Below are positions 8,455 through 12,468 of a DNA stretch of 64,000 nucleotides, in pieces. The number at the start of each line of letters is the position of its first letter. Positions within the stretch are counted from its first letter, which is position 1. Position numbers and translations under genes: made by a program. The DNA is from Maridesulfovibrio hydrothermalis AM13 = DSM 14728 (GTDB lineage: Bacteria; Desulfobacterota; Desulfovibrionia; Desulfovibrionales; Desulfovibrionaceae): positions 671,870 to 735,869 of the forward strand of contig NC_020055.1 in the NCBI RefSeq assembly GCF_000331025.1. Direction: 5' to 3'. The notes beneath the pieces were generated by a model. The model made no database searches and had not been told where the DNA came from. It was given only the letters and a program-made list of their open reading frames with translations.

Positions 8455-10122
8455 ATGACTGATTACACAGCAACGACCATCAATGACGAGTCAGGCTTAA
8501 CCGACATCCGCATCACTCAGGACGGCAGAAAAAAACACATGTGGGGAAAATTCGGCCAGCGCAAAGAAACTGAACTGGCCGAGACAATAGACGGCGAATC
8601 TATCCCGCTACTTATCGGTTCAGGCATAGGAACAGCGGCAAGGATACTTGCCGGGCAGCCTGACCGCCCACTCTTTATACTGGATTGCGAAAAGACCATT
8701 TTAGAGCAGACTAAGCTTAAGGAATCCCTGCGCTCTCATCCAAATGTGATCTGGATAACAACCTCCTCCCCGCTCAATGCAGCCCGGCATATTGCAGAGC
8801 TTGAAGTGAATTTTAAAAAAAAGATTCAGCTGTTAAAAATACCTTTCTACCTCAGACTTTCTCCCTTTTATGCGCAGGTAGAAAAGCTGATCCTTGCTGA
8901 AGTGGGGAAAGCTCCGGAATTCCCTGACTGGCCGAAATTTCAAAATGAAAAACCTCGCATTCTGCTGCTGACCAGCCAGTATTTTCTCATGGGCGAAATA
9001 GTTTCCGCCTGTGAACGTCAATCCGTGCCACACATGTTTATAAACATGGATACAAAGGAAATGGATCTGGAGCAGTTTGTAACCCGTATAACATCAGCAA
9101 TTAATACTTTCAGGCCCGACTTTGTGCTTACTGTCAACCACCTAGGAGTTGATCAGGAAGGAGTTTTAAATACTCTACTGCACAAATTTAAACTGCCGCT
9201 GGCCTCATGGTTTGTAGATAACCCTATGCTCATCCTGCCACTCTACAAAGCTCAGGCGGATTCAAACACCACCCTGTTCACGTGGGATGCGGACCGCATG
9301 GATGCACTCAAAACAATGGGTTACCGCAATATATTTCATATGCCTCTGGGAACCGATCAAACCCGCTTCCGGCCCTCAAAAGGATGTCAGGATACCAGAT
9401 GGGCGCGTGATATATCCTTTGTAGGCAACTCAATGGTTCACAAAACAAATAAACGCATGGAAGCCGCACGCCTGCCTGCGCAGCTTATTGAAAAATGGAA
9501 AGAAGTTGCCCACTGGTTCGGAAAAAAATCAGAACCGTCAGTTTTTAATTTTTTAAAAACAGATTATCCGGAACTGGTTGCCCACTACGAAAACCTGCTT
9601 TCCCCGTATCGCAAATTAGCCTTTGAAACACTGATCATCTGGCAGGCAACTCTTGAATATCGCCTATCCTGCATTAAGAAAACACTCGATTTTTCACCCT
9701 TGATTGTCGGAGATGACGGCTGGAAACAATTACTACCGAATAATCATTCATGGGAATATCACAACGAGCTGTCCTACTACGATGATCTGCCCCGCTTTTA
9801 CCCCTGTTCAAAAATAAATTTCAACTGCACAAGCCAGCAAATGAAAGGAGCAGTAAATCAGCGGGTATTTGATGTTCCGGCTTGCAACGGATTTATCTTA
9901 ACCGATCATCGGTATCAGGTAGAAAACCTCTTTGAGCCGGGAAAAGAAATTGCTATCTACCACTCGCTTGAAGAAATTCCTCAACTGATTGAAAAATATC
10001 TAAACGATGACGATGCCCGAAGGAAAATTATTGAAGCAGGCCGAAAAAGAATCCTTGCCCAACATACCTATGACTGCCGTATCAAAACTCTCATCGACTG
10101 CATGCGCCAGACATACAGCTAG
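8455..10122 (+). CDS. CgeB-like glycosyltransferase
   Basis: This 555-residue soluble protein has a Rossmann-like N-terminal half (about 160-290) and a C-terminal GT-B nucleotide-sugar half. The features ACNGFILTDH, FEPGKEIAIY and ARRKIIEAGRKRI at about 475-535 are typical of the CgeB/GT4-like family. It begins 5 nt after motB, so it is part of the motility operon, and a strong terminator follows. The position suggests a role in glycosylating flagellin or another surface structure. That is inference; acceptor and donor are unknown. Confidence 0.75.
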   Translation: MTDYTATTINDESGLTDIRITQDGRKKHMWGKFGQRKETELAETIDGESIPLLIGSGIGTAARILAGQPDRPLFILDCEKTILEQTKLKESLRSHPNVIWITTSSPLNAARHIAELEVNFKKKIQLLKIPFYLRLSPFYAQVEKLILAEVGKAPEFPDWPKFQNEKPRILLLTSQYFLMGEIVSACERQSVPHMFINMDTKEMDLEQFVTRITSAINTFRPDFVLTVNHLGVDQEGVLNTLLHKFKLPLASWFVDNPMLILPLYKAQADSNTTLFTWDADRMDALKTMGYRNIFHMPLGTDQTRFRPSKGCQDTRWARDISFVGNSMVHKTNKRMEAARLPAQLIEKWKEVAHWFGKKSEPSVFNFLKTDYPELVAHYENLLSPYRKLAFETLIIWQATLEYRLSCIKKTLDFSPLIVGDDGWKQLLPNNHSWEYHNELSYYDDLPRFYPCSKINFNCTSQQMKGAVNQRVFDVPACNGFILTDHRYQVENLFEPGKEIAIYHSLEEIPQLIEKYLNDDDARRKIIEAGRKRILAQHTYDCRIKTLIDCMRQTYS

Positions 10123-10146
10123 TTTATTTTTTATAATAAATCAGAA

Positions 10147-10183
10147 AAGTCCCCGGTACATATCAGATATATACCGGGGACTT
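10147..10183 (+). terminator. Rho-independent terminator after the motility operon
   Basis: A perfect 12-bp stem, AAGTCCCCGGTA with TACCGGGGACTT, encloses a 13-nt loop. An AT-rich run follows. It separates the plus-strand operon from the convergent FmdB gene. Confidence 0.85.
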
Positions 10184-10230
10184 ATTATAATCAGACTATT
10201 TTGCTTTCCGACCGGAAAGCTGTTTTAACC

Positions 10231-10455
10231 TCATGAAAATCCTGATCCACCAGCGCAACCACCGGCTGACGGCATGGGGGCCATAGATGAAAAACCATCT
10301 GCTCCAGATGAAGGCTTCGCGCTGAAGGCAGACATCATCTTAAAAGTTTCGGTACTTTCACACTTCGGGCAAGCTGGAGTTTTATCGCTGGAAGCAGAAA
10401 CAATCTCTTCAAAGAGGTGTCCGCACTGCTCACATTTATATTCATAAATAGGCAT
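10231..10455 (-). CDS. FmdB-family zinc ribbon protein
   Basis: This 74-residue protein starts MPIYEYKCEQCG and carries two Cys pairs (C8/C11 and C29/C32) that form a zinc ribbon. The C-terminal third is Ser/Gly/Ala-rich and low in complexity (GGCAGGSGFS), as is common in this family. FmdB proteins are small putative regulators first named in formamidase/amidase operons, and their biochemical role is poorly defined. A GGAGG lies 7 nt upstream inside the tail of the preceding candidate selenoprotein ORF, whose TAG ends 3 nt before this ATG, so the two are probably translated from one message. Confidence 0.88.
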   Translation of the reverse strand: MPIYEYKCEQCGHLFEEIVSASSDKTPACPKCESTETFKMMSAFSAKPSSGADGFSSMAPMPSAGGCAGGSGFS

Positions 10456-10458
10456 CGT

Positions 10459-10620
10459 CTACCTACCTCCGCATCCCTTACCCTTATTCTTACCGTCCTT
10501 TGACTGCAAACTGCAGCTACCGGAAGGGCGTCACGACTCGATGCCCAGCTTGGGCAAAACGACTTTCAAAACAATAAAAACTATTGCAAAAACTGCAATG
10601 AGTCCAAGAAAATCCATCAT
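10459..10620 (-). CDS. Tiny membrane protein with in-frame TGA (candidate selenoprotein)
   Basis: From an ATG at 10620 with GAGG 6 nt upstream the frame reads MMDFLGLIAVFAIVFIVLKV and on to LPKLGIES, one membrane helix and a short tail. A TGA follows at codon 30 (10533-10531). The same frame then stays open for 23 codons, reading RPSGSCSLQSKDGKNKGKG then CGGR, to a TAG at 10459. A hairpin of the bacterial SECIS type sits at the right distance after the TGA. Read as Sec, the product is 53 residues with U30, C36 and C50, a Cys-rich cytoplasmic tail. The alternative is a plain 29-residue peptide ending at the TGA. The full frame stops 3 nt before fmdB, whereas the short form would leave a 75-nt gap. 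I do not recognise the family. Confidence 0.5.
10497..10527 (-). promoter_or_regulatory. bSECIS-like hairpin
   Basis: Downstream of the TGA on the minus strand, CTGCA-GTT-TGCAG forms a 5-bp stem with a loop that starts with G, and CCTT/AAGG forms an outer stem. The loop begins 19 nt after the TGA, within the 16-37 nt range known for bacterial SECIS elements. Short stems like this also arise by chance. Confidence 0.4.
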
Positions 10621-10761
10621 ATTAAACCTCACTGGTTGTTTTCGGTTCTACAATCAAGTAAGCCTGCCATTCATAATGTCAATCCTAAACTCGAAAACAA
10701 TCAACAAAAGCTATACAATATTTTTATAAATATTTAATAAAACAAGGCCTTACCATCTGAT

Positions 10762-12468
10762 TCACGCCTCTGCCAAATCCACATAAAACATAAAAGTAGA
10801 CCCTTCACCGACAATGCTTTTTACCACCATCTCCCCTCCCATCATATCTACCAGCTTACGGGAAATTGGTAATCCAAGGCCGGTCCCCCCATATTTACGG
10901 GAAATTGAAGAATCGGCCTGAGTGAAGCTCTGAAAAATTATATCCTGCTTTTCCTGCGCAATGCCAACGCCCTCATCCCTCACTGAAAACATAACTTTTT
11001 CATTCTCAACATAAAGAGAGACCTCTACAACCCCATCGGCCGTAAACTTAATTGAATTACTGATTAAATTGGTCAAAACCTGCCTTATTCGCGTTGGATC
11101 GCCAGTAACCTTGAACGGTACATCACTCGAAATATTACAACTCAGCTCCAAACCTTTCTTGGAAGCATCAACCTCAAACATGGAGACAACTCTTTCGACC
11201 ATTTCATGCAGCAAAAAATCATGCTTTTCAATTTCAAGATGTCCAGCTTCAATTTTAGAAATTTCAAGGACATCATTTATAATTACAAGAAGCGACTCGC
11301 CGGCAGTGCTTGTAATATCCAGAAAACCCCTTTGCTCATTATCCAGCTTAGTTTCCTTCAACAATTCAACCATCCCCAGAATTGAATGCATCGGAGTTCT
11401 TATCTCGTGACTCATATTTGCCAGAAATTCAGTTTTGACTCGATTGGCAGTCTCAGCTTTTTCCTTTTCCTCCTGCAGCAAATCCAGAGTTTCATTTATT
11501 GAGTCTGAAAGATCCGTCAGCTCATCACTGCCGCTAAGCAATACATGTCTCCTGTGCGGTCCAATGAAGAATTCACCCTTTAGCTGAGATTGCAACATCT
11601 TAACTCTGGAAACAAAATTTAAATTAACAAGAATACTTGCTGTAACGCCCAGCAAAAGCAAAGCTCCCAGAAAAAAAAGAACAAAAGTCCAAGTCATGGA
11701 ACTGCCTATTTTATAGGCATCCCTGCTCATCTCAAGACGGAGCAAAACAAGAGGATTTCCTAAAAAATCGTTTATGACTTTAAAACCTTGGACAACAGTG
11801 TCATCAGGATTGTTTTTTCTGAAGAAAATTTCATCGGAAACAAGACCGTTAAGCTCATCAAATGAAAGATCAAGCAGCAGTTTATCGCCCAGCTTCTTAA
11901 CATCCGAATCTCCAAAGAAACGGCCCATAACAAGTGTTCCCCGTGTAGCACCTTTTGCCTGACTGGTTAAAATATGCTGAGCAGTAACCATAGCTATTTT
12001 ATGCGAAGCTCTGATCAACCCGCCGATTCCATCCCGGTTGCACCTCTTGACCAGTTCTCTCCCGCTATGCCCTTCCGTTGCAAAGCACTCTAATATAGGC
12101 TCTTTGGTGCCGAAAATTTTAGACTCATAAATCTTCCCTTCAGTATCAATAAAAAGTAAAAAATCTATTTTAAGATTGGTCAAAACTTCTTTGGTCAGAT
12201 TCGATTTAACAAATTCTTCGTTGCGAGTGCCCATAAACCTGTAATTATCATCCCACCAAGCCCACCCCCGACAGTAGTTAACCAGACTATCCGCTTCAGC
12301 ATAAATGGCAGATGATGCACGATTAAGATTTTCCTCAATCAAAACCTTTTCAATCTCATGTGAACCATGCTTCACCATTTGAGTCGCACCAAGCCATGCA
12401 GCACCAAGCATCACAGTGCACAATAGAAAAACACCTATAACACTCTTACCTTTAAGACCTATGCGCAT
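10762..12468 (-). CDS. Membrane sensor histidine kinase (CHASE4-type)
   Basis: This 568-residue protein has a membrane anchor (about residues 9-29), then a periplasmic CHASE4-like sensor with [11 protein letters not shown] near residue 68. A second helix (about 255-280) and a HAMP-like linker follow. The HisKA box is [16 protein letters not shown] (His near 352), and the HATPase domain has [14 protein letters not shown] and [13 protein letters not shown]. There is no receiver domain. No response regulator is adjacent, so its partner is unknown. It is transcribed after the cysS terminator and ends about 140 nt before the tiny TGA-containing gene. Confidence 0.9.

Follow-up and report, generated by a model that had tools for sequence, protein, structure and literature searches.

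A predicted single-helix membrane selenoprotein encoded beside fmdB in Maridesulfovibrio hydrothermalis and its relatives in other bacteria

In the FeoB-associated Cys-rich membrane protein (PF12669) a single helix precedes a short tail that contains Cys. Gene neighbours of the kinds found in bigR-type operons are also known from another system, the cst operon. For the bigR-type sulfide/persulfide operons themselves, the available part of the description (PMC5823870) mentions BigR and Blh together with a TauE-like transporter; a peptide such as the one considered here is not among them. Table 1 of PMC13188914 contains 119 bacterial selenoprotein families and subfamilies, and a selenoprotein form of FmdB (UxxU) is listed in the same paper. 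The constraints given there for the bacterial SECIS element (bSECIS) are a loop of 3–9 nt with G in the first two loop positions, a stem of 4–16 bp, a distance of 16–37 nt from the UGA and a minimum free energy (MFE) of at most −7.5. According to the same text, changes from selenocysteine (Sec, U) to Cys seldom occur and concern mostly FdhA and SelD. According to the accessible part of PMC12013277, its prediction method may miss selenoproteins without Cys homologues; its table gives 6 known selenoprotein genes for Desulfomicrobium orale DSM 12838 and 10 for Salidesulfovibrio onnuriiensis IOR2, and no new ones for either.

The gene described here has the features of bacterial selenoproteins generally, namely an in-frame UGA, a nearby bSECIS-like hairpin, the Sec machinery in the genome, Cys homologues and a possible redox motif. 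It is located in the window, the whole 64,000-nt stretch of the Maridesulfovibrio hydrothermalis AM13 = DSM 14728 genome that was analysed (Table 1). The initial annotation had presented positions 10459–10620 as a candidate selenoprotein, in view of the many selenoproteins of Desulfovibrionaceae; the coordinates are right, and the strand, which it left unstated, is minus. Reading the sequence bore out the gene structure it had proposed: one membrane helix, a TGA at codon 30, 23 further codons, a TAG 3 nt before fmdB, and 75 nt separating the TGA from fmdB. The helix spans residues 4–22, and fmdB starts at 10455. With TGA taken as U the translation is MMDFLGLIAVFAIVFIVLKVVLPKLGIES-U-RPSGSCSLQSKDGKNKGKGCGGR, followed by TAG. 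Judging from the sequence evidence collected below, this gene very probably encodes a selenoprotein. The best explanation of the data as a whole, and a very probable one, is a selenoprotein about 50 residues long that crosses the membrane once, with UGA read as Sec; on sequence evidence it would represent a new selenoprotein family. Sec would be inserted at the UGA by the ribosome via SelB with tRNA-Sec, and the hairpin about 20 nt downstream would guide the insertion.

Table 1. Features of the predicted selenoprotein gene and of the adjoining gene in the window.
Feature	Position	Strand	Details and basis
Predicted selenoprotein gene	10459..10620	minus	53 residues + TAG; translation, genus homologues, profile matches
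Start codons	ATG 10620; alternative ATG 10617	minus	
Likely ribosome-binding site GAGG, 6 nt 5' of ATG	10627..10630	minus	sequence reading
Transmembrane helix, residues 4–22	10555..10611	minus	mean hydropathy 3.02 over 19 residues
In-frame TGA, codon 30, putatively read as selenocysteine	10531..10533	minus	same position in 17/17 genus genomes, 75/80 codon-blind loci
SECIS-like hairpin, 6-bp stem, loop GUU, loop begins 19 nt past TGA	10503..10517	minus	folding; genus covariation
C-terminal tail, 23 codons, Cys at U+6	10462..10530	minus	translation; family-wide purifying selection
Predicted true stop TAG	10459..10461	minus	sequence reading
GGAGG, likely fmdB ribosome-binding site, within tail codons	10466..10470	minus	sequence reading
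fmdB, FmdB-family zinc-ribbon protein	10231..10455	minus	TIGR02605; adjoins gene in 11/17 genus members

The product of fmdB was identified by TIGR02605 (63.5 bits, cut-off 31.3), has ordinary Cys motifs and lacks an in-frame stop. The peptide gene is separate from it, belongs to a different family and adjoins it; fmdB is probably not part of the same system. A sensor kinase gene (10762–12468, minus strand) is also located 5' of the selenoprotein gene. An Rfam scan of 9500–11500 returned nothing but irrelevant sub-threshold miRNA matches. Between 10150 and 10800 one promoter-like site was found (1.3 in shuffles) and two terminator-like sites (0.8 in shuffles).

The window protein matched no model in NCBIfam (release 20) or Pfam. 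For sets of 60 and 46 members searched at E≤1 no convincing model was obtained, the best E-values being 0.0016 with NCBIfam and 0.0025 with Pfam. PF04602 from mycobacterial arabinan synthesis, the commonest weak match (7/60 and 18/46 members, best E 0.0025), was attributed to similarity along the helix. No family in Table 1 of PMC13188914 can be recognized as a single-helix peptide of such size with a Cys 5–7 residues past U. NF041197 (dual-CXXC small), NF041239 (CC/Se motif), NF049953 (hypothetical DG) and NF049942 (DF) are, as far as their available descriptions go, likewise of unknown function, and some are small; they are absent from the matches of the members in NCBIfam release 20, in which another model of the series, NF049943, was confirmed. 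No description of the family was found among the papers listed by searches of the open literature, nor in Table 1 of PMC13188914. A plasmid search with the window protein gave zero matches, and a PDB profile search gave a single meaningless one (E=0.57).

Homologues with one in-frame TGA at the identical codon are present in 17/17 genomes of the genus (L, G, C and g numbers are our labels for loci, genomes, contigs and genera). Homologues ending at the TGA, which by the initial annotation would have spoken against its reading, are absent from the genus, all 17 tails being 19–23 codons long and terminated by TAA or TAG, never by TGA. The fmdB gene is directly downstream in only 11/17 members. 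In L012, L018, L021, L023, L024 and L025 there is no fmdB start within about 1.45 kb downstream, and the tail is still kept; beyond the stop codon of L023 and L024 there is a broken start resembling that of fmdB. In the order, a profile built from the genus matched 100/348 genomes at E≤0.01, and a broader profile matched 165/348, some chance matches included. Matches at L156, L157, L158, L159 and L207 were judged non-homologous and dropped; L158 resembles what we take to be the carbon starvation protein CstA. L205 has Cys and a doubtful tail and was excluded from the counts. Among the 130 order sites outside the genus that were read and kept, TGA occupies the U codon in 129 and Cys in one (L109), whose congener L100 has TGA.

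Beyond the order, 395 genomes were drawn evenly from the phylum, and 167 of them gave matches at E≤0.001. We re-read 38 of these loci (20 listed matches without an internal stop and 18 with TGA), and 37/38 have TGA at the usual codon, then a tail. In L331, a weak second match in its genome, the TGA is displaced from the usual codon and lies three codons past a Cys, and this locus was counted as a miss; the displaced TGA follows SFSCPT (genome G436, contig C204). G436 and four other genomes of the same genus g76 (G364, G401, G464, G491) have two matches each in the phylum search. The bias to TGA was removed in a codon-blind scan of an 84,980-species collection, with the U column masked with X and the search pattern chosen inside the helix only. 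This gave 151 stretches and 124 relatives, of which the best 80 were kept. In these best 80 of 124 the U codon is TGA in 75, Cys in four (L263, L300, L304 and L309, all Planctomycetes) and TAA in one; they come from delta-proteobacterial lineages and from bins titled Spirochaetes, Planctomycetota and relatives, Acidobacteria, Caldithrix and Myxococcales. The 75 tails of TGA type end in TGA (30), TAA (30) or TAG (13), or are cut by contig ends (2). The TAA locus (L284:2415-2501, Caldithrix bin) retains a readable tail, and its genome contains SelB; it may reflect loss of the gene, a mistake in the assembly or some other cause. The distant and genus alignments (A5 and A1) are homologous by hhalign (97.9%, E=3.9e-13). 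Judged by these sequence matches the family is large and occurs in several bacterial groups. The initial annotation's reading as a selenoprotein is supported; its framing within Desulfovibrionaceae was too narrow.

The initial annotation had held that a sensible tail was unlikely to arise by chance. From one genome chance cannot be excluded, because the tail end overlaps the GGAGG, which had been overlooked; the relatives do exclude it. We compared 37 pairs of relatives with equal tail length and 70–98.5% identity, each locus being used once. Changes in the tail fall at codon positions 1, 2 and 3 in the numbers 75, 52 and 150. Among codons with a single change 96/175 are synonymous, compared with 24.7% expected, giving a dN/dS-like ratio of 0.27 (p=1.8e-17); for the codons past the twelfth, most of which lie beyond the hairpin, it is 0.25 (p=6.7e-11), all such p values being optimistic owing to kinship among the sites. 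In the control, 60 nt past the stop, the changes by position are 320/304/309, without codon periodicity. Judged by this test, the tail evolves as protein and the sequence past its stop does not. At all 236 sites of the family set the frame stays open for at least 10 codons past the TGA (5–95% range 16–36 codons), as opposed to 201 and 151 of 236 sites in the other two frames. The five Cys loci, the TAA locus L284, the dropped rows and the 38 re-read phylum loci are left out of this set and the duplicates L151, L232 and L247 were removed; a small number of genomes may nonetheless be represented in two collections.

The hairpin claimed in the initial annotation, 19 nt past the TGA with a loop beginning with G, does exist, but alone it is no better than shuffles (z from −0.5 to −1.4 in three stretches folded). 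Its significance rests on the comparison across relatives. We coded the constraints given in the available text of PMC13188914, with the upper stem limit not enforced and the MFE computed for the 44 nt past the TGA. The window site fits this model (19 nt, GUU, 6 bp, −13.1 kcal/mol). Across the family 181/235 sites fit and 54/235 fail, compared with fits in 20.1% of shuffles (10 per site) and in 40/233 windows past the next stop. The 194 stem-loops include 116 distinct sequences, and the stem differs between lineages. Because the family hairpins had been picked by folding, the genus sequences were also aligned (15/17; L023 and L024, with 8-nt loops, were left out). Two-sided changes were observed in 3/5 consensus pairs, including a C-G to G-C swap in 7/15 sequences.

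The Sec machinery, whose presence the initial annotation had proposed to check, is encoded in the window genome: SelA (601.6 bits), SelB (389.7), SelD (330.8) and tRNA-Sec (83.3) all score above the cut-offs. The selD gene (L230) itself contains an in-frame TGA, so SelD of this genome is probably a selenoprotein too. In the order, SelB was detected in 135/143 carriers of the family (best E≤1e-4) versus 149/205 non-carriers (p=9e-8), and the eight carriers without it have assemblies broken into 120 to 520 contigs. By no means every genome with SelB has the gene: 149/284 SelB genomes of the order have no family match at E≤1e-4. Thirty genomes were tested for SelB, and it was found in 21/25 of Sec type, in 1/4 of Cys type (L309) and in the TAA genome; SelB thus went undetected in 3/4 genomes of Cys type, all four Planctomycete, versus 4/25 of Sec type (Fisher p=0.034).

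Homologues with Cys at position 30, a further check proposed initially, were found at five loci (L109, L263, L300, L304, L309), all with the tail kept. At L300 a 21-nt stretch with the hairpin is common to this Cys form and its Sec-type relative L290; this suggests, and does not prove, a recent Sec-to-Cys change at L300:1436-1639. SelB was not detected in the L300 genome, and the hairpin may be a SECIS fossil.

Averaged over the 236 sites, the net charge of residues 1–6 is −0.73, and that of the 12 residues preceding U is +2.14. By the positive-inside rule we infer that the N-terminus would be outside, and the selenol and the nearby Cys on the cytoplasmic face of the membrane. The first Cys past U is at +5, +6 or +7 in 207/236 sites. 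There is none in 8/236, and in some tails the first Cys is far from U, so not every member depends on the U...C pair. One branch of the genus (e.g. L011, L014) has lost the Cys near U and has one close to the C-terminus. Alignment A3 omitted members without a second Cys; its invariant C36 is thus a product of selection of sequences and was not used as evidence.

For 211 clustered sites, mainly from Desulfovibrionales, the upstream genes include purC (55), hisD (42) and fabI (19), and the downstream genes rpsF (15), rpsR (25), rplI (23) and dnaB (24). For purC, hisD, fabI and rpsF the name rests on a model match of a single example each, that of fabI lying below the individual cut-offs; rpsR, rplI and dnaB were recognized by eye. 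The surroundings in Desulfovibrionales are housekeeping, with no evident partner gene. At the Desulfuromonadales-type loci L269, L270, L276, L277, L292 and L298 a sensor kinase gene is 64–74 nt upstream; in the one of these six that was tested, CpxA models were the best, below their cut-offs. At L260, L262 and L267 a TlpA-like redoxin gene is upstream and an ArsR regulator gene downstream (L262 was checked with Pfam).

The link to sulfur rests mainly on 19 Planctomycete loci, which are all those among the best 80 of 124 relatives, none picked for context. A rhodanese gene is present within about 4 kb in 6/19 (L266, L272, L290, L293, L300, L309), compared with 0.13 expected from rhodanese counts in the same genomes (p=2e-9). 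A YgaP-like membrane gene is near five further loci, L248, L256, L263, L282 and L304 (L248 and L304 checked with Pfam); the rhodanese query contains a YgaP-like part, and L248, L256, L263 and L282 (34–43 bits) were counted as YgaP-like only. TauE and ArsR genes are also found near the gene in Planctomycete loci. None of the genes sought is near L280 or L291, and L297 and L305 have a weak match only. At L309 the gene row is ArsR, rhodanese-YgaP, MBL-rhodanese, the peptide in its Cys form, TauE and a sulfide-quinone-reductase-like protein, and resembles the bigR operon in the available part of PMC5823870. More generally, some Planctomycete loci share with that operon type an ArsR-type regulator, a rhodanese, an MBL-fold/rhodanese enzyme, TauE and a sulfide-quinone-reductase-like protein. 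Such surroundings occur in part of the Planctomycete loci, and not in the window or in Desulfovibrionales.

We tentatively suggest, from the neighbours and the motif, that the peptide may serve membrane-tethered sulfane-sulfur/thiol redox traffic with thioredoxin-like or rhodanese-like partners; a sulfane-sulfur function is considered because such genes accompany it in many Planctomycete and some Desulfomonile-type loci. The tethered selenol/thiol pair would take up and hand on sulfane sulfur (persulfide), or reduce such species, its partners being thioredoxin-like or rhodanese-like proteins. A wider and somewhat more speculative proposal is that the family ranks among the more widespread selenoprotein families of anaerobes and was overlooked as a 29-codon ORF. 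It would be almost exclusively Sec, with Cys derived and not ancestral, and its membrane selenol would link sulfide-oxidising enzymes of the membrane with thioredoxin-like proteins of the cytoplasm by carrying or reducing sulfane sulfur.

The strongest competitor accepts a selenoprotein and differs in its task: a membrane accessory for metal binding or iron trafficking, like the FeoB-associated Cys-rich membrane proteins, in place of sulfur chemistry. The architecture, a helix and then a Cys-containing tail, is the same, PF12669 has weak similarity to 2/60 members (best E=0.004), and the neighbouring FmdB is a zinc ribbon. We consider this task unlikely: PF12669 is absent from the families matched by the 46 distant-branch members, and no feoB was recognized among the neighbours read or annotated (by reading, not by model search). 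Considerably less probable is a selenium-sensing leader ORF, in which selenium status would set the passage of the UGA and hence control the downstream gene. The end of the ORF just before fmdB in 11/17 genus members and the downstream rpsF in a number of Desulfovibrionales would suit such a leader; it agrees poorly with downstream genes that vary by lineage, a nearest ORF that is often on the opposite strand, selection on helix and tail residues, and Cys versions in genomes without detected SelB.

Readthrough of the UGA without Sec, be it through leaky near-cognate decoding, through reading as Trp or in some similar way, is very improbable, given that TGA is also the next stop after 87/236 tails, that a SECIS-like hairpin is at the right distance, that carriers associate with SelB, and that the sense codon replacing TGA is Cys in all five cases. 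Finally, the reading of TGA as an ordinary stop after a 29-residue membrane peptide, with the tail as a purine-rich fmdB leader and ribosome site, draws on the overlap with the fmdB GGAGG and on the window hairpin not being significant alone, and is rejected with next to no probability left because of the coding test on the tail and the five Cys homologues that keep it, the tails of the six genus members without a nearby fmdB start and the near invariance of TGA in the codon-blind scan standing against it as well.

Prediction of selenoproteins depends largely on Cys homologues, of which the present family has few, and its gene is very short: it resembles a 29-residue fragment, yet by its sequence it encodes, with high probability, a Sec-containing membrane protein of about 50 residues. 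It is present in L147 and L168, which we judged to be Desulfomicrobium orale DSM 12838 and Salidesulfovibrio onnuriiensis IOR2, both examined by the predictor of PMC12013277 according to the accessible part of that paper. Other micro-selenoproteins may hide likewise. The family reverses the usual ratio, Sec being common and Cys rare, offers possible cases of Sec-to-Cys change, and provides a concrete, testable link of selenium with persulfide chemistry.

Two observations concern unusual gene arrangements. In one genus (g25; L163, L164, L166, L167) some genomes have two tandem copies, the second of which has lost the near Cys (UMPxPPDVWETP) and kept the TGA. At L287:3983-4501, in a Pirellulales bin, the peptide, the TGA and the tail run in frame without a stop into a thioredoxin, possibly a natural fusion of the two.
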